Shown one piece after another: positions 27,549-38,013 of a DNA stretch of 64,000 nucleotides. The notes beneath the pieces were generated by a model. That model searched no databases. It had not been told where the DNA came from and saw nothing but the letters and a program-made list of their open reading frames with translations. The stretch is from Thalassospira lucentensis MCCC 1A00383 = DSM 14000. Lineage in GTDB: Bacteria; Pseudomonadota; Alphaproteobacteria; Rhodospirillales; Thalassospiraceae. The position numbers and the translations under genes were made by a program. The DNA lies in assembly GCF_000421265.1 (NCBI RefSeq), contig NZ_ATWN01000005.1, positions 248,001-312,000 of the forward strand. Direction: 5' to 3'. Position 1 is the stretch's first letter. Every line of letters begins with the position of its first letter.

Positions 27549-30500
27549 TTAATAATCAAGCCTGTATTGAATACCAGCCGTACTATCAATCTCGGTGGTT
27601 TCGCTGGTCACACTGATGTTCGGGGTGATTTCAATTTCGACTTCGACCCCGCTTGATCCCGGCGTTGAACCGGCCTTGGTGCCGACATAGACCCCGTCGG
27701 TCAGATACTTGCCAACCTTGACCTCCGGCCCGTCTTCACCGCCACCGACCTGTAAAACATCGGCACCAATAAACCGACGCACACTGCCGACCACATCAAG
27801 GCCGCTGCCACCGCCCGACAATTCATTTAACGCACTGGCAAGCTGGACGGCCTCAACAGCACTCAGGCTGCCTTGCGACTTCCCAAACAGGACTTGAGAC
27901 AGAATTTCATCTTCCGGCAAGGACGGATTGGACGTCAGCACGAGTTCAGGGTCACTTGCTGGCCCCTGAAAACCTGCCGTGACTTCAAGCTCGGACGTTG
28001 TATAAACCCCCTTGATGTCGAGCATCGGATCAGGCGGGGATGCACCGGCAAACGTGATGCTCGAATCCTTGATCACGAATGTTTTGCCAATGATATCAAG
28101 CTGCCCGCGCAACGCCGACAATTTGCCGACAATGCGCGGATCGTTGGTTGTGCCTGAGATATCAAGCGTGCCACCCCATTCGGAATCAAGCCCCTTACCG
28201 CGGACAAAAAGTCGTGCAGGGATATTCACCGTTACATCCAGATTGCCGACAAAGCCGCCTTTTGCTTCCTGTTCTTTTTTGGCTTTTGCTTCTTCCTGCG
28301 CACCCGGAAGGTTGGCAACATCAAGGCTTGGAACCGATTCAGGCAAGGCAAGGCTCAAGTCCACCTCACCGCGCTGAAGCGTCACGGTGCTTTTGATATC
28401 CGCCCCGTCTTCGGTGCCCGTGACAGATGTGTCAACATCGGCCCAGAATTGAAGCTCATCTTTGCGCGAAAGCGCCATATTGTTGAGCTTAAGCGCAACA
28501 TCGTATTTGACCATTGATCCTTGGTTAAGGCCCAGATCAACCGATCCATCAAGTGTCCCCGAACCACCATCGGTCGCAGTTATAGACGGGATTGAAAGCC
28601 CGGTCTGGTCAAAGTCACCGGTGAATGTCAGCCCATCAATAATGGTGCCATATTCAAGGTTTTCATACGCGCCATTGGCAAGCTTGATGTCACCTTTCCA
28701 CGCGATGTCATCAAGACGCCCACTGACATCAAGGGCCAGCTTGATGTTGCCCGAAAGATCATGATCGGGGGCCGGGACATACGGCCAGAATTCCGCAATC
28801 TCACCGTCAAGGCGCACCGATCCGACAACCGGTGCCGACATATCGGGACTAAATTCCTGTGCAAGGATTGAAATCGCCAGAAGCACCTTGCCATTGGCTT
28901 TCAGAATCTGTTCATCGGCATTGCCCAGAGATGCGGCACCGGAAAGCTCGGCATCTTTAAGGCTGACGTCCAAATCCATTTCAAGCGGCTTGAGCCCCTT
29001 GGCCGCCTTGGCAGTAATGCCGTCAATTTGACCTTTGACCGATGCGGTTGGCGTCTCACCCGGCTTTTCACGCAGCATGGCCGCAAGGTTCGCAGTCCCG
29101 TCAAGGCCATCAAACCCGGCAATCGCCCCCCACGGACCAAGATCAACGCCCTCAAGCGTGACATCCGCAGAAATCATCTGCTTTGCCTTATGGTCAAGAA
29201 CCGCACGCAACTGACCACTGCCAACCGTGATATCGGCATCAAGCTGCTGGGTACCATCACTTTTCTGAACAAAGCTTAATGGTTCTCGTAAGGCAACTTT
29301 CTGATCTGCGATAAAGACATCAAATTTACTGGCATCCACACGCAGATCATCACCAAGGCCAAGCTTGGTAAGTGCATAAACTGAAAACGGCACGTTGGCT
29401 TGCCATGTGCCACGGGTCTTAAGCGAGACATCAAGCGCGTCCAGCCCACCATTAGCCCCAACTGTCACGTCATTAATCGCAACGTCACTGGCAAAGATGT
29501 CTTTTCCTTCAAGGGTCGCATTGATCGCGGGGGCCTCAAACGCATTGGTAACGTCTGCGGCAAGATTGATATGATCGACCCTGACCGGGTCTTCACCCGG
29601 TGCTGCCTCCAGACGCAGCCCCTTGGTCGTCGCCGTCACATTGACGGTTTGCTGTGTACCGTCAGGCACCAGCGCGATGTCAGCTGTCATTGCACCATTG
29701 GTAAAGGGCACACCAAAATCAGACAGCATCACCGCATCAAGCTTCGACAGCGCAAATTTGCCCTGCATCGGCACGGCGTATTCAGGCAGGGTGATATCCC
29801 CGCGAAGGTCAATATGCTCCCCGCTCAGGGAAATGCCCTCAACCCGCAAGGCGTTACTTGGCAGAACAACATTGGCCGCAAGATCATATTTGGCATTCGC
29901 GCGGTTGAATTTGACCGTATTCGTCAGTGACAACACCGATTGCGCCGACCATCCCATCTTGCTGACAAGCTTGACGTTTTCAAGAACCTGCCCCGCCGCA
30001 TCGACCTTGGCGGTGCTAAGGTTAATCACCCCGGCGGGTGCACTGGTCGGGCCATCAAGTGCGATGGTCAATTTCGCCGGTGCAATCGCAACCCCGATCC
30101 CCGGCGGCACGGTTCCCGGTGCAATATCAAGATTGGCGTCGATGGCCATTTGACCAAATGTTTCAGTCAGATCGACCTTTGCCGCCCCCGTCACTGTGGC
30201 GGTTTGAACCTGATTAAGGTCAATGGCCATATCAAATGCCGGGCTGATCGCAACCGATCCGGCAAGGGTTGGTGACGGGCCAACAATCCGATCCAGATCA
30301 GAAACGCCAAATCCGGTTTGCGTGCCATTGACCGCAACGTCAAAACCGCCACCATTTTCCAGCGACCATTTTATGTCCGACAGGGAAACTTGCCCCTGCC
30401 CGGATAAATCAAGCCCGGAAACGGGCCCAAAGATCGAAAGGTCGGCCACATCAGCCGTCAGACCCGCATCAGACACAACCATGGCATCATCAAGCATTGC

Positions 30501-31994
30501 CTGCCCCCGCACCGTCATCGCGGGCGTTTCAAGCAACAACTGACGCAGATTGATATTGGCAAAGTCCGATGAAATCACACTTTCAACCGACAGAGACTGA
30601 TTGTCCCCGACAATCGCACCAAGACTATCATCCTGCCAAACATGGCCTTTGGTGGTCACCGTAACCGATGCCGCAAGATCATCATTGCCAATAATCCCGC
30701 CAGATACAGGTGCAAGATCGGCACGGGCCGAAAGTCCAGCAATGGATGAAACTGGCGTTTCTATATCGCGTCCATTGATCGAAAGCTGCACGTCGGGCAG
30801 ATCAAAACCACCCTTGGCGGCAAGATCAACATTAAGCATCCCCCAGCGGACCTGATCATCAATCAGGGACGATAATACAGGATCAACATTGGCCGATATT
30901 TTTGCCACAACCTGACTTTCGGCAAGATCGATATCCGCCGTACCCGACACATCCAACGCACCGGGCATCTCAACAGCCAGACGGTCAAACGAAAGATGGT
31001 CATTTTCAAGGTCAAACGCCCCGGAAATGCCAAGCTCGATCACCTTGCGCACTTGTTCGGGCAATTGATCAGAAATCAGCTCAAGCGGTTCCAACCCGCC
31101 ATCAAAGCCAAAACCAACCGCATCAGACGACAGCTGCACACCAACATCACCACGAAGGGTCGCATAACCACTGGCCGAAAGGTCAATATTACCCTTCCAG
31201 TCGTCCGCAGGCCCCGCCCCCTTAAGCAATATCGTTATGTCAGCTGCACTTTCCGGGTCCAGCCCGGCAAGTGTCATGACAAGTCCTTCACGGTCAATCT
31301 TACCGTCAATGTCGGCACGAAGTTTCTGGTCTGGACCATCAAAATCCAGATCGACTGCCAACCGGTCCGCACCACCATCAAGCGGGGTTAAATCAAGTTT
31401 CGCCTTGGCCGAAAGATTACGTCCCGCCGCCGCACTGGCATGCAATTCATACAAAAAGCTTTTGCCAGATACCGGATCAACAATCGCGATCTGATCAAGG
31501 GCCAGTTCATCCAGCCCGATCTCAAGTGGTAGCGAAAATCCGGAACTTTCTTCGTCGGTTTCTTCTTCGGGTTCGGATGGTGCTGTTCCATCTGGCAGGA
31601 TCACGCTGGTGCGCGCCATTGACACCCGGTCGATCTGTAACCGCCCCGTCAGAAGGGCCAGGGGCGACCAGTCAAACACGCCGTTATTAAGTTCAAGATG
31701 GAAACCATCGACGTCGCGCGCCATTAAAAGGCTGTCGATCTGCAATCCGGTCCAGATGCTGCCTTCGACCCGGCCAAGTTCAAACTGGCTGTCAGTGGCC
31801 GCAGCAACGGTTTCATTGAGCATCGGTGTGATCGCACGCAAAACGGGACCTGTACCGGCAACACCAATGATCACCAGCAAAAGCACGATGAGCGCACCCA
31901 AAGCCATCGCACTTCGGCGCACCCACTTTATCAACGGGTGTTTCGATGCGGCGGGCTGGGTTGGACGTGGGGACAAGGGATCAGACTTGGTCAA
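27549..31994 (-). CDS. tamB: Translocation and assembly module subunit TamB
   Basis: A 1481-residue envelope protein. A basic N-terminus and one membrane anchor (about residues 28-50, ALGALIVLLLVIIGVAG) are followed by a very long periplasmic region of repeated beta strands. The family's C-terminal DUF490 domain includes 'GRLDIIGKTFVIKDSSITFAG' and 'VEVEIEITPNISVTSET'. TamB forms a groove across the periplasm and acts with TamA in outer-membrane protein assembly and in phospholipid movement. Its start overlaps the tamA stop by 4 bases. An Asp/Glu-rich linker (SEPEEETDEESS) lies near residues 140-155. Confidence 0.93.
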   Translation of the reverse strand: MTKSDPLSPRPTQPAASKHPLIKWVRRSAMALGALIVLLLVIIGVAGTGPVLRAITPMLNETVAAATDSQFELGRVEGSIWTGLQIDSLLMARDVDGFHLELNNGVFDWSPLALLTGRLQIDRVSMARTSVILPDGTAPSEPEEETDEESSGFSLPLEIGLDELALDQIAIVDPVSGKSFLYELHASAAAGRNLSAKAKLDLTPLDGGADRLAVDLDFDGPDQKLRADIDGKIDREGLVMTLAGLDPESAADITILLKGAGPADDWKGNIDLSASGYATLRGDVGVQLSSDAVGFGFDGGLEPLELISDQLPEQVRKVIELGISGAFDLENDHLSFDRLAVEMPGALDVSGTADIDLAESQVVAKISANVDPVLSSLIDDQVRWGMLNVDLAAKGGFDLPDVQLSINGRDIETPVSSIAGLSARADLAPVSGGIIGNDDLAASVTVTTKGHVWQDDSLGAIVGDNQSLSVESVISSDFANINLRQLLLETPAMTVRGQAMLDDAMVVSDAGLTADVADLSIFGPVSGLDLSGQGQVSLSDIKWSLENGGGFDVAVNGTQTGFGVSDLDRIVGPSPTLAGSVAISPAFDMAIDLNQVQTATVTGAAKVDLTETFGQMAIDANLDIAPGTVPPGIGVAIAPAKLTIALDGPTSAPAGVINLSTAKVDAAGQVLENVKLVSKMGWSAQSVLSLTNTVKFNRANAKYDLAANVVLPSNALRVEGISLSGEHIDLRGDITLPEYAVPMQGKFALSKLDAVMLSDFGVPFTNGAMTADIALVPDGTQQTVNVTATTKGLRLEAAPGEDPVRVDHINLAADVTNAFEAPAINATLEGKDIFASDVAINDVTVGANGGLDALDVSLKTRGTWQANVPFSVYALTKLGLGDDLRVDASKFDVFIADQKVALREPLSFVQKSDGTQQLDADITVGSGQLRAVLDHKAKQMISADVTLEGVDLGPWGAIAGFDGLDGTANLAAMLREKPGETPTASVKGQIDGITAKAAKGLKPLEMDLDVSLKDAELSGAASLGNADEQILKANGKVLLAISILAQEFSPDMSAPVVGSVRLDGEIAEFWPYVPAPDHDLSGNIKLALDVSGRLDDIAWKGDIKLANGAYENLEYGTIIDGLTFTGDFDQTGLSIPSITATDGGSGTLDGSVDLGLNQGSMVKYDVALKLNNMALSRKDELQFWADVDTSVTGTEDGADIKSTVTLQRGEVDLSLALPESVPSLDVANLPGAQEEAKAKKEQEAKGGFVGNLDVTVNIPARLFVRGKGLDSEWGGTLDISGTTNDPRIVGKLSALRGQLDIIGKTFVIKDSSITFAGASPPDPMLDIKGVYTTSELEVTAGFQGPASDPELVLTSNPSLPEDEILSQVLFGKSQGSLSAVEAVQLASALNELSGGGSGLDVVGSVRRFIGADVLQVGGGEDGPEVKVGKYLTDGVYVGTKAGSTPGSSGVEVEIEITPNISVTSETTEIDSTAGIQYRLDY

Positions 31995-34003
31995 AATGCC
32001 TGCCCCAGACTGATATAGAACTGATAATCGTCATCAACATTTTCACGTTTATCAAGTGGCACGGCGACGTCAAAGCGCAACGGCCCGACTGCCGTGTAAT
32101 AGCGGAAACCAAGCCCCGTCGCCCACAGCAACGAAATGTCGTCAGGATTGTTGCTTTCATACACATTGCCGCCTTCGATAAACGGCACGATGCCAAAACT
32201 TTCGGTAATGCGCGCACGGAATTCAAACCCGACTTCCAGCACAGAACGCCCACCAACCGGATCGCCATCATCGGCAAGCGGCCCGACCTTTTGATACTCA
32301 TAGCCCCGGATCGAACCACCACCCCCGGAATAGAACCGTTTGTTCGACGGTAAGTTGCCGCGTTCTTCACCAATGATGGTACCCGTGCGCGCCCGGGCCG
32401 CCATGACGTAATCACCGTCATCATCAATCGACAAATATTGCGACCCGCCCAGTGAAACGGACGTAAAGCTGGTGTCGGTATCGGTCAACCCGACATAGGG
32501 CGATACATTAAGTTCAAGACGGTTACCCTCGGTCGGGTCAAGCGGGTTGTCGGTATTGTCATGTTTTAAAATGCCGCGCAAACCGCCCAGATAGAATTGC
32601 TCATTGGGGGAATCCGCACCGGTCAGGTCCGAATATTCCGCTGTGAAGCCAAATGTCCCCGACCAGTTTTCACCAAGCCTGCGTTCGACACCAACAAAGC
32701 TGTCGACCAATTCCCCCTGATACGCATCGGTATCATGGTTCTTGGCATTGCCCTCGGCAACAAGGGCCTGACGACGACGCAAGAACTGCGGTTTGCGAAA
32801 TTCTGCTGTGAGCCCCTGCTCCTGACCAGATGCCTCAACCCCCAACCGCAATTTTTCGCCCGCACCAAACAGGTTGCGATGTTCCCAAAACGCATTGGCC
32901 CCCGGGCCGTCGGCGGTTGAAAAGTTAACACCACCACCAATCGAACGGTGTTTGCGTTCAACTACTGTGATGTCGACGGGAATTTCGCCGCTGTCACTGA
33001 TGGGGCCAACCGGCTTGACGATGACGCTGTCAAACAGGTTGGACTGCGCAAGGTCGCGTCGCGTGGTTCTGACCTGTTCGGGGTCGTATTTCTCGCCCGC
33101 CCCCCAACTCCGGTAACCGGCGATGAAGTCGGCATCGACTTCCTCTGCACCATTGACATTGACAGTACCGAAATTGGCCTCGGCCCCGGCATCAAATGCA
33201 TATGTTACGGAAATTGTCTTATTGGCGGTGTTGGCCATGACGGTGCGTTTCCCTGCCTTCGCCAACGGGTACCCGCGGCTACGCAGTAAATCAACGCCAT
33301 ACTGTTCGGCCAAAATGATCGGTTCCGCCGTGGCGCGCTGCCCGATTTGCAAATGGGTTGCTTCAAGTTCGGCATCAGTTGCGGCGCGCTCGATCACCTT
33401 GTCGGGATAAGTTGTTTTAAGATCAACCGCCTCGATCAGATAAGGTGTTCCGACGTCAATCTGATAACTCAGAACAAGCGGTGTTGGCGCATCGGCACCT
33501 TCGGCCTGTTCACTGCCCGCAGCACTGCCGTCAATATCGCCGTTTTTATTTTCTGTCGGTTTTTCCGATGCGTTTTCAGACCCATCTTCGGCGTCTGGCG
33601 ATTGGGGATCGACCGGATCAGTTGATACTTTTTCGGCAATATCAAAGGTGACCTGCGCCTCATAGAAACCCTTTGAACGCAACACAGCCTGAAACCGTTC
33701 AATGTCATCTTCGGCACGGCGTTGAAGACCCGCACGTGACGCAGTCGGGCGCGACTGCAAACGCCGTGCGGTACTGGCCCCATTCAGGCTTGCGATCAAT
33801 TGTTCTTCTTGCGGATCAATACCGGTAAGTTCCACTTCATAGGGAATGGTCGAACGGAGATCGTTCTGCTGAACAGCTTCATCCGCGCCAAAGCCAAATC
33901 CCACAGCGCCCTCATCCGACGAACAGCCTGCAAGCAACGTTCCCGCCATTAAAAGCGGTACGAATGCAACACGTCGGCCATAAGACCGGAAGTTGTGGAA
34001 CAT
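31991..34003 (-). CDS. tamA: TamA-like outer-membrane assembly protein with a lipoprotein signal
   Basis: A 670-residue Omp85-superfamily protein. POTRA-type domains lie in the first half, and a 16-strand barrel (bacterial surface antigen domain) begins near residue 350. It ends in Phe (YISLGQAF), as outer-membrane barrels do. Unusually, the N-terminus is a lipoprotein signal: hydrophobic core, then LLAG-C27, with Ser at +2, which allows outer-membrane sorting. An acidic, Ser/Glu/Asp-rich insert (about residues 127-173) interrupts the POTRA region. I chose the ATG at 34003. TTG codons at 34015 (better spaced from AGGA) and 34045 are alternatives that keep the lipobox. It is co-transcribed with tamB. 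Confidence 0.9.
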   Translation of the reverse strand: MFHNFRSYGRRVAFVPLLMAGTLLAGCSSDEGAVGFGFGADEAVQQNDLRSTIPYEVELTGIDPQEEQLIASLNGASTARRLQSRPTASRAGLQRRAEDDIERFQAVLRSKGFYEAQVTFDIAEKVSTDPVDPQSPDAEDGSENASEKPTENKNGDIDGSAAGSEQAEGADAPTPLVLSYQIDVGTPYLIEAVDLKTTYPDKVIERAATDAELEATHLQIGQRATAEPIILAEQYGVDLLRSRGYPLAKAGKRTVMANTANKTISVTYAFDAGAEANFGTVNVNGAEEVDADFIAGYRSWGAGEKYDPEQVRTTRRDLAQSNLFDSVIVKPVGPISDSGEIPVDITVVERKHRSIGGGVNFSTADGPGANAFWEHRNLFGAGEKLRLGVEASGQEQGLTAEFRKPQFLRRRQALVAEGNAKNHDTDAYQGELVDSFVGVERRLGENWSGTFGFTAEYSDLTGADSPNEQFYLGGLRGILKHDNTDNPLDPTEGNRLELNVSPYVGLTDTDTSFTSVSLGGSQYLSIDDDGDYVMAARARTGTIIGEERGNLPSNKRFYSGGGGSIRGYEYQKVGPLADDGDPVGGRSVLEVGFEFRARITESFGIVPFIEGGNVYESNNPDDISLLWATGLGFRYYTAVGPLRFDVAVPLDKRENVDDDYQFYISLGQAF

Positions 34004-34322
34004 GCAGTCTGTCAAAAAACGTCGTATCCTTTTGCTTCGTTCCAACCGGGCCTTTGGGGGCCATTATTTTGACCGATAACAGTCTTTTGGTTTGCTATCA
34101 TTTACGGCGATGGCGCGTATTGGGATCAGAACAACTTTTAAAGCAGTTATCTGAAAACACCATATTTTCAATTACTCTACAGGTCGAGGACCAGCTGTGC
34201 CAACTCGCATGTAAAAATGGCATGGCAATGACCCATAATCGCACTTGTCAGAAAAATACATTGAGCGTACCGGGGGTTGAATGCACGATGCAACGTGCCC
34301 CCAATTGCAGGAGATCCATCTC
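34004..34322. other. Intergenic region between tamA and the GNAT/ATP-grasp gene
   Basis: This 319-base divergent region must carry the promoters of tamAB (reverse) and the GNAT/ATP-grasp gene (forward). It is AT-richer than its surroundings, especially at 34070-34180. I find no convincing gene, strong inverted repeat or well-spaced -35/-10 pair. Confidence 0.6.
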
Positions 34323-36284
34323 GTGACATCGACACAGTCCAATGCAGTCATTCTTCGTAATGCCATGCCTGCCGATATTGACGGGCTTTGCGCACTTGAG
34401 ACAGCGAATTTCACAAGTGATGGTATCACACGCGCATCCTTTTTGCGTTTTCTGCGCCGTAGCTCGGCGCGTCTTCTTGTCGCGGACGCAGGGGACGGCG
34501 AACATCCCAACGTTGTCGGCTACGGCTTGTTGTTGTTGCGCGAAAATTCGATAACAGCACGGATATATTCACTGGCCATTTCCAAAGACTGGCGGGGCAT
34601 CGGTCTGGGCACGCAACTTCTGGCCGGGATGGAAAACCTTGCCATTGAGGCTGGCTGTCTTCGCATTCGCCTTGAAGTGCGCATCGAAAACGATACCGCA
34701 CGTGGCCTTTATGAACGTCACGGATATCAAAAAGTTTCCGACCTGTCCGGATATTATGAAGATGGTGCCGATGGCATCCGTTTGCAGCATGACCTTTATG
34801 ATGTCATTGCCGAAAAATCGCCTGCGGTTTCAACCGGTGCACCGCTCATCCTTGTTGATCGGCTGTCTGACATCCCCTTTGCCGTTTCGGGTGCGCGCGT
34901 CATGCGGGTGCGCGATTATCTCGCCCTTGATCACGGGGTGCGCAACCGCCGTGTGATCAACCTGTGCCGGTCCTATGAATATCTGTCGCGTGGTTATTAT
35001 TGCAGCCTGCTGGCCGCGGCCCGCGCCGAGCGCGTGATCCCCGAAGCCGACGTTTTGCTGGACCTGAACTGGAAACGCCTGCAAAAGGCCGCGCGCAATG
35101 ATCTTGGCCCGCAAATCACCGAGGCCCTGACAAAACCGGGCGATCATCCGACCTATGTTGATGTCTATTTCGGACGCAGCACCGACAAACGATTTCGCCA
35201 CATCGCCCAGCGGGCCTTTGATCAGTTCCGCTGCCCGATCCTGCGGCTGCATCTGAACAATAAGGATGGCAAAGCCTCTTTACGCGAAATCGAAGCCCCA
35301 TCGCTAAGCCAGCTTAACAGCGGCCATATGACCGCATTTGAAGCCGCCTTGCGCGCCTATTTGCGTGGACGCGTCCGCAAACAGGGTAACGTCACCCAGC
35401 CAACCGCCCTGGTCGCTATTTTGCACGATCCCGACGAAGTCATGCCGCCATCAGACAAAGACGCCCTTGCCCTTTTCGTGCAGGCCGCAGCCGACCTTGG
35501 CGCGCGCGCCGAATTGATCACAGCAAAGGATTTCCATCATCTGTCGGAATTTGATGCGCTTCTGATCCGCGAAACCACTGCCCTTGACCACCACACCTAT
35601 CGCTTTGCCAAACGTGCAGTCAAGGAAGGCATCCCGGTCATTGACGACCCGGACTCGATGCTGCGCTGTACCAACAAGGTCTATCTGGCCGAATTACTGC
35701 GCACACATCGCATTCCGGCCCCCAAGAGTGCGATTTTCGATAAGCGCCGCATTGGTGAAATCGGTCAGCAGTTTAGCTTCCCGTCGGTTCTGAAAGTGCC
35801 CGACGGATGTTTTTCGCGCGGCGTGCGCAAGGTGAAATCACCCGAACATCTGGCCGAAGTTGCCAGTGATATGTTCAAGAATTCAGAACTTCTGGTCATT
35901 CAGGAATATGTCGAAACCACCTTTGACTGGCGTATTGGTGTTTTGGGCGGCGAAGCAATTTTTGCCAGCCGCTATTTCATGGCGCCGGGTCACTGGCAGA
36001 TCGTCAAACACGAAGACGACGGCAAAAGTTATGAAGAAGGCGGGTTCGAAACCGTCGCCATCGAAGACGCCCCCGAAGACATCGTCACAACCGCCCTTGC
36101 CGCCGCACGGTTGATGGGCGACGGGCTGTATGGTGTCGATATGAAAGAAACCCCAAACGGTCCGATGGTGATTGAGGTCAATGACAACCCCAACATCGAC
36201 GGCGGGGTTGAGGATGCCGTGCTTGGGATGGAGCTTTACCGGCGCATCATCGCCCATCTTCTGGGCAAGATCGCCCGTCCGTAG
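34323..36284 (+). CDS. GNAT acetyltransferase fused to RLAN and RimK-like ATP-grasp ligase domains
   Basis: A 653-residue three-part protein. Residues about 8-158 are a GNAT domain with the acetyl-CoA loop DWRGIGLGTQ (89-98). Residues about 175-335 match the RLAN domain found in front of some RimK-like ligases (ARVMRVRDYLAL, NLCRSYEYLSRGYYCSLLA). Residues about 450-650 are ATP-grasp, with K491 in SVLKVPDG, QEYVETTFDWRIGV, and the metal-binding end GVDMK...IEVNDNPNID. RimK-like enzymes join amino acids to a carboxylate, so this could build or modify a peptide and acetylate it. The GTG at 34323 is preferred because AGGAG lies nine bases upstream. ATG at 34281 is possible. A GNAT-C39 gene is convergent. 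Confidence 0.86.
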   Translation: MTSTQSNAVILRNAMPADIDGLCALETANFTSDGITRASFLRFLRRSSARLLVADAGDGEHPNVVGYGLLLLRENSITARIYSLAISKDWRGIGLGTQLLAGMENLAIEAGCLRIRLEVRIENDTARGLYERHGYQKVSDLSGYYEDGADGIRLQHDLYDVIAEKSPAVSTGAPLILVDRLSDIPFAVSGARVMRVRDYLALDHGVRNRRVINLCRSYEYLSRGYYCSLLAAARAERVIPEADVLLDLNWKRLQKAARNDLGPQITEALTKPGDHPTYVDVYFGRSTDKRFRHIAQRAFDQFRCPILRLHLNNKDGKASLREIEAPSLSQLNSGHMTAFEAALRAYLRGRVRKQGNVTQPTALVAILHDPDEVMPPSDKDALALFVQAAADLGARAELITAKDFHHLSEFDALLIRETTALDHHTYRFAKRAVKEGIPVIDDPDSMLRCTNKVYLAELLRTHRIPAPKSAIFDKRRIGEIGQQFSFPSVLKVPDGCFSRGVRKVKSPEHLAEVASDMFKNSELLVIQEYVETTFDWRIGVLGGEAIFASRYFMAPGHWQIVKHEDDGKSYEEGGFETVAIEDAPEDIVTTALAAARLMGDGLYGVDMKETPNGPMVIEVNDNPNIDGGVEDAVLGMELYRRIIAHLLGKIARP

Positions 36285-36300
36285 TACTGATGCAAACAGC

Positions 36301-36342
36301 AAAAAGGCCGGGGATCGAAAGCGCGGATCACCCGGCCTTTTT
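36301..36342. terminator. Bidirectional terminator between the two GNAT-fusion genes
   Basis: A 12-bp stem (AAAAAGGCCGGG at 36301-36312, CCCGGCCTTTTT at 36331-36342) with an 18-base loop. The right arm lies within the last codons and stop region of the convergent C39 gene, so the same bases encode its Lys-Lys-Ala-Gly end. Confidence 0.9.
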
Positions 36343-37485
36343 GCTAACAAACACCGCCGCCTGAACTTTATCGCGGCCATAGCGCGCCATCAGATCAAAC
36401 TCATGACGCAGGATCGGGAATGACAGGCAATCGCTGCCGTTAAACGGGTCATGATCATCGCCAATATCAGGATCGGTGACATAGACAAACCGGTCATCAA
36501 AGCCCGACACCACTACCCAATGGGGAATTTTATCGCCGTAAATGCGGTACTGGCTGATTAGAACCAGCGCCATCTGGCCGTTGCGCATGCGGTTTTCGAT
36601 CTCGGTCACGCCAAACGCACCAACAGATACGGGAATGCCTGCCTGTTCGATCTGACGGGCAAAATCATAATGCACCAGTTCGACCACTTCGCGGCTTTTG
36701 GCTTTGCGCACGGAATCAACAAAAAGCGGCCCATCGCGACTGCGCAAGACCTCGACGTTAAACCCGCGTCGATCTGCCGCCAATGCCAAGCCCAACGGAC
36801 CACAGCCACCATGACCTGATGTCATGAAAATGGTGGTGGCTTCGCGCCACAATGCGATTTCAAGGCTCCTGTCCATTTCAACCAATGGATCAAGCGCATT
36901 CATCGCCATCATCAAGGACGCCGGACCACAGGTGAATGGCAGGGTCTGGTGATAAAAATGGATCGGCGATGGCAGGCGCATCGATTGGGGGACGAGCACC
37001 CTTTCCATGCGCAGAGCATCGGAATGATCGGGATAATAATCAGGATACAGCGCAAATTCACGGTAACCCGCACCGTGAAACAGCGCGATGGCAACCGCGT
37101 TGCCCTGACTGACCTCAAGCCGCAAAATCGGCGCACCGTAATCAAGGCTAAGCTCTTCTGCCTGCCTCACAAGCGCGCGCCCAATGCCTTTTTGGCGAAA
37201 GTTCGGATCGACCGCCATCGAATAAAGCCGGGCCAACGCTACATTGCTACGAAAAACCACCAAGGCATAGCCAACAACAGCACCGTTACTTTCGGCAACG
37301 CGCAGACGTGCGGTTTCACTACCGATAAAGCGTTTGAACGCCCGGCGGCTTAGTCGGTCAATGTCAAAGGAACGGTTTTCAATGTCACACAGGGCATCAA
37401 GATCCCCGTCATGTGCCAATCGAAACCCGATCTGGCTGTCATCAAGTTGGCCCAAAATCACACCTGCATTGCGCACCCACGACAT
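36328..37485 (-). CDS. GNAT acetyltransferase fused to a C39-like cysteine peptidase
   Basis: A 385-residue cytoplasmic protein. Residues about 18-165 form a GNAT domain with the acetyl-CoA loop FRQKGIGRALV (97-107). From about residue 172 a C39-like papain-fold peptidase follows. The oxyanion Gln Q180, nucleophile C186 (in TCGPAS), H322 (in PHWVVVSGF) and D338 (in VTDPD) form a complete set with the usual Q-to-C spacing of six. C39 domains normally cut after double-Gly leaders of exported peptides, but this one has no transporter domain. It is convergent with the GNAT/ATP-grasp gene, so a shared peptide substrate is likely. The ribosome site of the ATG at 37485 is weak. Confidence 0.85.
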   Translation of the reverse strand: MSWVRNAGVILGQLDDSQIGFRLAHDGDLDALCDIENRSFDIDRLSRRAFKRFIGSETARLRVAESNGAVVGYALVVFRSNVALARLYSMAVDPNFRQKGIGRALVRQAEELSLDYGAPILRLEVSQGNAVAIALFHGAGYREFALYPDYYPDHSDALRMERVLVPQSMRLPSPIHFYHQTLPFTCGPASLMMAMNALDPLVEMDRSLEIALWREATTIFMTSGHGGCGPLGLALAADRRGFNVEVLRSRDGPLFVDSVRKAKSREVVELVHYDFARQIEQAGIPVSVGAFGVTEIENRMRNGQMALVLISQYRIYGDKIPHWVVVSGFDDRFVYVTDPDIGDDHDPFNGSDCLSFPILRHEFDLMARYGRDKVQAAVFVSKKAG

Positions 37486-37599
37486 TCAAAGCATGTCACG
37501 GCGTCATATCGACACGAAACGTTTAAATGCAATAGTGCAATTTCGGTAAGCGTGCCGCGCGTTTATGCCATGCAGCACTTCATGCAAGCACCCAACACT

Positions 37600-38013
37600 C
37601 TAGCCGCGTGCGGAGATGCGTGGTACCAACGGCGACATATCATATCCGGCATCTGACGCTGATTTGATGATGTCTTGCACCGGCAGCTTACCCGCACTGG
37701 CCAAAGACCACAGGATCGTGCAACGCGTGCCGCTGCGGCAATAGGCAAATACCGGCTTTTCTGCCGCTGCAAGATTGGCGGCAAACGCATCGGCATCAGC
37801 ATCAGCAACATTGCCGCTGGCGACAGGCTGAAAAATCGCTTTCATGCCAAGGCTCTCGGCCTTGGCGGCAATTTCCGCAAACGATGGCTGTCCCGGGTCC
37901 TCGTCATCCGGGCGATTGCAAATGACGGTTTTGAAACCGGCTTTGGCAATCTCGTCAATGGCCTCTATTGGCAATTGCGGCGATACGGTCAGCTCATCAC
38001 TCAAGCGTTTCAT
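37600..38013 (-). CDS. Blh-like sulfurtransferase/phosphatase-fold protein (DUF442, TIGR01244 type)
   Basis: A 137-residue protein of the dual-specificity-phosphatase-like fold. The active-site loop is AYCRSGTRCTILWSL, with the CX5R motif (Cys then Arg five residues later). The N-terminal 'LTVSPQLPIEAIDEIAKAGFKTVICNRPDDE' is typical of the DUF442 domain fused to beta-lactamase-like sulfur dioxygenases (Blh). Such proteins are linked to sulfide and persulfide handling. The ATG at 38013 has AAGGGGA upstream, and the frame to 38055 lacks one. A DUF2892 membrane protein gene lies 152 bases upstream on the same strand, another frequent neighbour in sulfur detoxification loci. Confidence 0.83.
   Translation of the reverse strand: MKRLSDELTVSPQLPIEAIDEIAKAGFKTVICNRPDDEDPGQPSFAEIAAKAESLGMKAIFQPVASGNVADADADAFAANLAAAEKPVFAYCRSGTRCTILWSLASAGKLPVQDIIKSASDAGYDMSPLVPRISARG

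Follow-up and report, generated by a model that had tools for sequence, protein, structure and literature searches.

Two convergent genes lie in a stretch of 64,000 nucleotides of Thalassospira lucentensis MCCC 1A00383 = DSM 14000 (contig NZ_ATWN01000005.1, positions 248,001 to 312,000 of the forward strand; hereafter the window), and the proteins of both begin with a GNAT domain. Gene 1 continues into an RLAN domain and a RimK-like ATP-grasp ligase, while gene 2 continues into a C39-like domain (DUF3335). What could such a pair make or modify, and do the two genes belong together? An earlier note on this DNA had supposed that the pair builds, acetylates and trims a small peptide or modifies a protein end. 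A peptide role fits the families concerned, but the pair was found not to be the minimal unit: the constant unit is a GNAT plus an RLAN ligase, which is narrower than the ligase/C39 pair. With close to even confidence, we read the two genes as one small pathway making and turning over an N-capped small peptide, in a sister form of which a glutamate-cysteine-ligase-like enzyme (GCS2) would replace the GNAT.

The gene content around the RLAN ligases was classified in 136 loci with 134 distinct ligase sequences. These comprised 50 loci of a survey set (50 of 59 places, the nine left out belonging to families already represented), six more loci of the genus, chosen for having DUF3335, and 80 named loci, which were the best 80 of at least 585 relatives and included Bacteroidota, Balneolota, Planctomycetota and others; at least two genomes occur in two of the three sets. 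A GNAT was fused to the ligase or lay within 3 kb of it in 119 of the 136 loci. GCS2 was found in 11, both in none, and neither in six. Of the 119 GNAT loci, 84 hold a GNAT-DUF3335 gene, another 27 a separate GNAT, and the remaining eight a ligase-fused GNAT only. In the survey set, 49 of the 50 loci had a GNAT and one had neither, with DUF3335 beside the ligase in 36; all six genus loci had a GNAT. A position control, whose profiles were built from the same loci and which thus tests position and not discovery, gave 111 GNATs in other genes, 21 ligase-fused GNATs and 11 GCS2 within 3 kb, a total of about 998 kb. Further out, about 1,560 kb of flank held two GNATs, no GCS2 and none of the other families. 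Four of the six loci with neither enzyme (L083, L199, L209, and L210) come from genomes that have a GNAT-DUF3335 gene elsewhere; the other two show an adjoining C39-like gene (L182) and a weak GNAT match (L186).

The 11 GNAT-less loci with GCS2 belong to Pseudomonadota (six), Planctomycetota (four), and Balneolota (one); L214 of Blastopirellula marina is an example of a GCS2-partnered ligase. In all 11, the GCS2 gene directly follows the RLAN ligase downstream, on the same strand, and in nine of them it touches or overlaps the ligase frame. Two of the GCS2 proteins were scanned and matched PF04107 with 96 and 109 bits; against the NCBIfam models, both scored below all cut-offs shown. Since GNAT and GCS2 exclude each other at the loci, they look like interchangeable first-step (capping) enzymes. 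A small C39-like gene was present directly upstream in seven of the 11 GCS2 loci. Profile comparison relates it to DUF3335 (hhalign probability 97.5); TCGP occurs in six of the seven members of its profile, and GHFV and a later DP in all seven. In the ligase tree, a strongly supported set of 19 contains the GCS2 loci together with six GNAT-fused loci (five Bacteroidota and one Balneolota), one separate-GNAT locus and one with neither. The tree suggests that the swap between GNAT and GCS2 may have taken place more than once, the number being small.

The pairing of RLAN and DUF3335 was surveyed in 299 genomes of the phylum, with RLAN found in 56. The earlier note had named rarity of the two genes near each other as the outcome that would speak against its proposal; the survey came out in favour of it, as 46 of the 47 genomes with DUF3335 also had RLAN (Fisher p about 4e-43, kinship ignored) and 44 of 59 RLAN loci had DUF3335 within 5 kb, the remaining 15 being not adjacent. 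The pairing is not chance. In the 44 adjacent loci, the C39 gene lay upstream on the same strand in 26, the genes were divergent in 13, RLAN lay upstream on the same strand in three, and the genes converged in two. The convergent order occurred only in Thalassospira, both survey cases being the window genome and one of its genus, and the ligase was on the opposite strand, 3' of the DUF3335 gene, in 20 of 20 examined Thalassospira DUF3335 loci. Because the genes stay together while their order changes, they probably have a common task. Methanosarcina acetivorans, a control genome, matched DUF3335 but not RLAN and is thus a case of archaeal DUF3335 without such a ligase.

Judged from the ligase tree, the C39-like enzyme is an add-on which comes and goes. 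The label 'GNAT-C39' requires 16 changes on this tree, at least 10 of the changes being forced by well-supported branches; the 13 Thalassospira loci were scored as 'fused' despite having C39, and the figure therefore counts the label, not true gains and losses. None of the eight genomes with a ligase-fused GNAT only matched DUF3335. A conserved third gene, which the earlier note had proposed to look for, turned up in some lineages only: the comparison of neighbour families in the fetched loci gave none conserved across all loci, whereas DUF2817 and DUF155 recur in some Pseudomonadota and GCS2 replaces GNAT elsewhere. DUF2817 (10 loci) and DUF155 (nine loci) were the widest shared non-core families in the fetched survey-genome loci.

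Several of these partners were recorded individually. DUF2817 (PF10994, M14-like) stands beside RLAN in L097, L098, L100, L102, L103, L107, L113, L117, L134, L179, L200, L210, and L221, nine of which also have DUF155 (PF02582, RMND1-like), and beside GNAT-C39 in L129, L228, and L229. GNAT-C39 and RLAN with DUF2817 and DUF155 are a possible four-gene version. Proteins without a Pfam match lie directly beside the RLAN ligases of L219 (9054-9821) and L199 (11487-12917) and are possibly lineage-specific partners. A query with the window's GNAT found no GNAT in DUF3335 proteins of L130, L131, and L132; in L131 there are two such genes, at most 10 kb apart, and no RLAN match came from G008, the genome of L132.

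The features of the two window genes are collected in Table 1. The domain order that the earlier note had read in both proteins was borne out by the Pfam scan, in which GNAT, RLAN, and RimK-like ATP-grasp (PF08443, 36.8 bits versus a cut-off of 21) all scored above cut-off in gene 1, as did GNAT and DUF3335 ('Peptidase_C39 like', PF11814, 271.3 bits versus a cut-off of 25) in gene 2. Gene 1 is thus an RLAN ATP-grasp family member, with RLAN above cut-off followed by a RimK-like ATP-grasp, and gene 2 a DUF3335 member, with the domain above cut-off and the papain-fold residues Gln, Cys, and His. Profile searches returned a single RLAN match and a single DUF3335 match in the genome. K505, D620, E632, and N634 of the ligase are invariant in 36 aligned sequences; their catalytic roles we take from the fold family. 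The four residues read earlier in gene 2 held as well: all 37 aligned sequences, gene 2 among them, have Q180, C186, and H322, while position 338 carries D in 32 of them and E in the other five. Close relatives are named 'GNAT family N-acetyltransferase/peptidase C39 family protein' by NCBI. A classical C39 bacteriocin-processing transporter was rejected for gene 2, as neither PF03412 nor an ABC domain was matched in the Pfam scan of its 385 residues, in keeping with the earlier remark that it has no ABC transporter domain.

Table 1. Coordinates (window positions) of the two genes, their domains and the terminator between them
Feature	Position	Strand	Details
Gene 1, GNAT-RLAN-RimK-like ATP-grasp ligase	34323..36284	+	GTG start
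GNAT domain, gene 1	34350..34796	+	PF00583, 57 bits, above cut-off; motif RGIGLG
RLAN domain, gene 1	34911..35345	+	residues 211-355; PF14401, 131.4 bits versus cut-off 25
Pre-ATP-grasp and ATP-grasp, gene 1	35406..36275	+	residues about 376-665
Gene 2, GNAT-C39-like (DUF3335)	36328..37485	-	385 aa
GNAT domain, gene 2	36991..37434	-	residues 18-165; PF00583, 58.9 bits
C39-like papain-fold domain, gene 2	36346..36960	-	residues 176-380; Q180, C186, H322, D338
Shared two-way terminator	36301..36342	.	perfect 12-bp inverted repeat 36301-36312 / 36331-36342

The longest open frame of gene 1 starts at an ATG at 34281 and runs to 36284 on the plus strand (667 aa). GGAG at 34310-34313 precedes the GTG at 34323, which is a plausible start. 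Of five named Thalassospira matches, two start at residue 15, which corresponds to this GTG, and the other three at residues 4, 7, and 18. The pattern [RQ]xxGx[GA] is present in all 21 ligase-fused GNATs of the locus set. Fusions of GNAT and ligase appear at two places of the ligase tree, one with Thalassospira, Cohaesibacter, and an archaeal metagenome-assembled genome (MAG), the other with Bacteroidota and Balneolota. Among the genera of the examined loci, only Thalassospira combines a GNAT-ligase gene with a GNAT-C39 gene; its two GNATs are about 35% identical and fall in separate, well-supported sets. The archaeal-labelled fusion (L154, 583-2505) lies on a contig of a Candidatus Thermoplasmatota MAG and groups with Thalassospira and Cohaesibacter, reflecting either gene transfer or a binning error.

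How would a GNAT, an RLAN ligase and a C39-like enzyme work in one pathway? In the proposed scheme, the RimI/Ard1-like GNAT would first acetylate an amino acid or short peptide at its alpha-amine. The RLAN/RimK-like ATP-grasp enzyme, to go by its fold and the conserved ligase residues, would then turn the capped molecule's carboxylate into an activated acyl phosphate and couple it to a second amino acid, through the amine of the latter, or to some other amine. The C39-like thiol enzyme may hydrolyse the product or transfer its acyl part to another amine, that is, serve as the opposing or tailoring step. In the sister form, a GCS2-type ligase would take the place of the GNAT and lay down a gamma-glutamyl cap in the first step, after the logic of glutathione synthesis, in which a GCS is followed by an ATP-grasp enzyme.

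A number of points weigh against this scheme. The 64 GNAT loci among the 80 named ones (GCS2 in 11 and neither in five) come from a set ranked by likeness to a GNAT-bearing query, which favours GNAT loci; the survey set was not so ranked. The GCS2-type loci number just 11 and sit near one another on the ligase tree, three changes by parsimony suffice for the swap between GNAT and GCS2, and a single GCS2 origin was rejected only weakly, in a test made after seeing the tree (p-AU 0.034). GCS2 and GNAT could also serve different products. Ten of the 11 GCS2-type genomes had no DUF3335 match, which is in the scheme's favour; against it, the eleventh (G333) matched weakly, at 20.2 bits and at 25.2 bits with neighbours included, versus a cut-off of 25, and the completeness of these genomes is not stated. 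C39 is missing beside 14 of the 50 survey ligases and is therefore not needed for the core step. The model is built on domains, conserved catalytic residues, linkage, and the exclusion between GNAT and GCS2; its activities, substrate, and product are predictions. Finally, the nearest solved relatives of the GNAT act on protein N-termini and LysX and RimK on protein C-termini, so that by analogy a protein target would fit as well.

Modification of a protein end is the most probable of the alternatives, even if we hold it unlikely. Here the GNAT would acetylate an N-terminus, the ligase would extend a target or carrier protein with amino acids, at its C-terminus or at a side-chain carboxylate, and the C39-like enzyme would take them off again, as with RimK and RimB on the ribosomal protein RpsF. 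Structure comparison speaks for it. The GNAT domain of gene 2 has a fold closest to the N-terminal acetyltransferases Ard1 and RimI (the GNAT filled the match list), and in the full model of gene 1, where all matches fell on residues 374-667, the ATP-grasp is closest to LysX/ArgX and RimK, which act on proteins. According to a passage in PMC11957791, RimB takes glutamates off polyglutamated RpsF. The RimABK system resembles the present set in combining a RimK-type ligase with an opposing protease; it differs in its aspartic protease, its ribosomal target, and the lack of a GNAT. However, GCS2 stands in for GNAT in the 11 loci described above, which would be odd for a protein N-terminal acetylase. 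Gene 1 did not reach the cut-off of the RimK family alpha-L-glutamate ligase model (TIGR00768; 78.8 versus 143.4 bits) or of the LysX model (74.8 versus 275.6 bits), and a profile search of the genome gave no LysW carrier, the control matching four of 14 genomes. The RGG stretch of RimK and LysX is not kept in the RLAN ligases, which have an invariant HWQI...H stretch instead. RimI itself (S18 N-acetyltransferase, TIGR01575) was approached and not reached, at 73 and 76.3 versus 86.4 bits.

A role in salvage or self-protection, in which the set would acetylate, ligate or hydrolyse foreign or toxic amino acids or peptides and make no dedicated metabolite, appears improbable. It gains from the M14-like DUF2817 that adjoins the set in 13 of the 136 loci, one member of which weakly resembles the murein tripeptide amidase MpaA (18.9 bits versus a cut-off of 157). 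DUF2817 was, however, not found in the window genome by a model that matched 64 of the 299 genomes. In addition, DUF3335 was present in 29 of 29 searched Thalassospira genomes with its catalytic residues kept, as would be expected for a steady role. Very improbable is a graspetide-like ribosomal peptide product, whose precursor would be tied by the ATP-grasp and freed of its leader by the C39 enzyme: transporter-fused C39 peptidases are the most frequent neighbours of graspetide-type ATP-grasp genes according to a passage in PMC8939145, but gene 2 is without the transporter domain, the ligase is closest to RimK/LysX, the RLAN and DUF3335 genes nearly touch in many co-directional loci, and no small gene emerged as conserved next to the pair, in searches that are weak for genes of this size.

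The pathway for an N-capped peptide was compared with known systems. In N-acetylglutaminylglutamine (NAGGN) synthesis, which yields an N-acetylated dipeptide osmolyte, the synthetase ('trio_acet_GNAT') likewise brings a GNAT together with an ATP-grasp. It has no above-cut-off match in the window genome and was rejected for gene 1: the best of seven genome matches to TIGR03103 scored 28.8 versus 569 bits, the GNAT of gene 2 scored 25.2 bits, and the model is absent among the 20 listed for gene 1. Glutathione synthesis consists of GCS and GshB; the GCS2-type loci similarly place a glutamate-cysteine-ligase-like enzyme beside an ATP-grasp ligase, whereas the ligase of the RLAN set is of the RimK/LysX type with RLAN, and a C39-like gene is added in seven of the 11. 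Nat8l is a GNAT, Rimkla is RimK-like, and GCPII is a metallopeptidase. These three form the N-acetyl-aspartyl-glutamate (NAAG) pathway, where, as part of PMC8836185 describes, an amino acid is acetylated and then ligated and a peptidase lowers the product. The sequence of acetylation, ligation, and peptidase is alike in both, but the NAAG pathway is of animals, is without RLAN, and employs a metallopeptidase, in contrast to the C39-like thiol enzyme here.

This kind of system is already published as a prediction. Iyer et al. 2009 (Mol Biosyst 5:1636) reportedly predicted amidoligase neighbourhoods of ATP-grasp, GNAT, and peptidase. A passage of PMC10318531, citing that work, has DUF3335 members often fused to GNAT. 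In the part of PMC4431377 concerned, operonic links of ATP-grasp with COOH-NH2 ligases or GNATs are mentioned as seen earlier (citing Iyer et al. 2009), links of ATP-grasp ligases to GNAT, other ligases, and peptidases are interpreted as peptide synthesis, and a GNAT is suggested to cap the peptide in that paper's own families. The swap between GNAT and GCS2 was not found described in the literature, the full text of Iyer et al. 2009 lying outside the comparison. The open-access literature gave no RLAN paper under the family names, one passing mention of DUF3335, and no product for RLAN ligases. The PA1766-PA1767 operon of Pseudomonas aeruginosa, considered as a possible relative, is mentioned in two papers, one of them with a 'predicted ATP-grasp domain'; the passages concerned gave no tie to RLAN, and the operon was not used.

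A broader proposition, possible though doubtful, is that RLAN ligases define a widespread, undescribed bacterial family of small capped peptides. The cap would be exchangeable, acetyl by GNAT or gamma-glutamyl by GCS2, the second piece would be the same in both forms, and the C39-like thiol enzyme, joined in some lineages by an M14-like peptidase, would break or transfer the product. If so, there would be a second logic parallel to that of glutathione, and should a common small peptide be the product of the RLAN ligases, which occur in 56 of the 299 phylum genomes, a widespread side of bacterial metabolism would have been overlooked. The swap makes the question of the product testable, because the two versions are expected to have the second building block in common and to differ by their caps.

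At the window locus, the earlier note had assigned one terminator to both genes, and a perfect 12-bp stem does lie between the converging gene ends. It folds with -28.6 kcal/mol on one strand and -27.1 kcal/mol on the other, and its right arm coincides with the end of the gene 2 coding sequence; a consensus terminator scan, allowing loops of 3-8, did not list it. The intergenic stretches 34046-34322 and 37486-37602 match seven and four of 12 other Thalassospira loci, respectively. In agreement with the earlier remark that no precursor gene is obvious, no conserved small reading frame stood out in the two stretches, a search weak for small genes, and tblastx matches came in several frames alike. 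The locus scripts kept frames of at least 50 or at least 90 residues, smaller flank genes being outside their scope. The conservation is more like that of regulatory DNA than of a gene.

The noncoding segment 34132-34322, between gene 1 and a divergent Omp85-family gene, is kept in seven of the 12 other Thalassospira loci, where 51-189 bases align at 71-82% identity, as would be expected of a shared regulatory region. The neighbour families which the pair shares in Thalassospira were not seen outside the genus. Among them, the Omp85/POTRA gene (31991-34045) is TamA-like, below the TamA model cut-off, and is followed by a gene for 1481 aa (the two spanning 27549-34045). Both adjoin the pair in 13 of 13 mapped Thalassospira loci, and the second is TamB-like by size.

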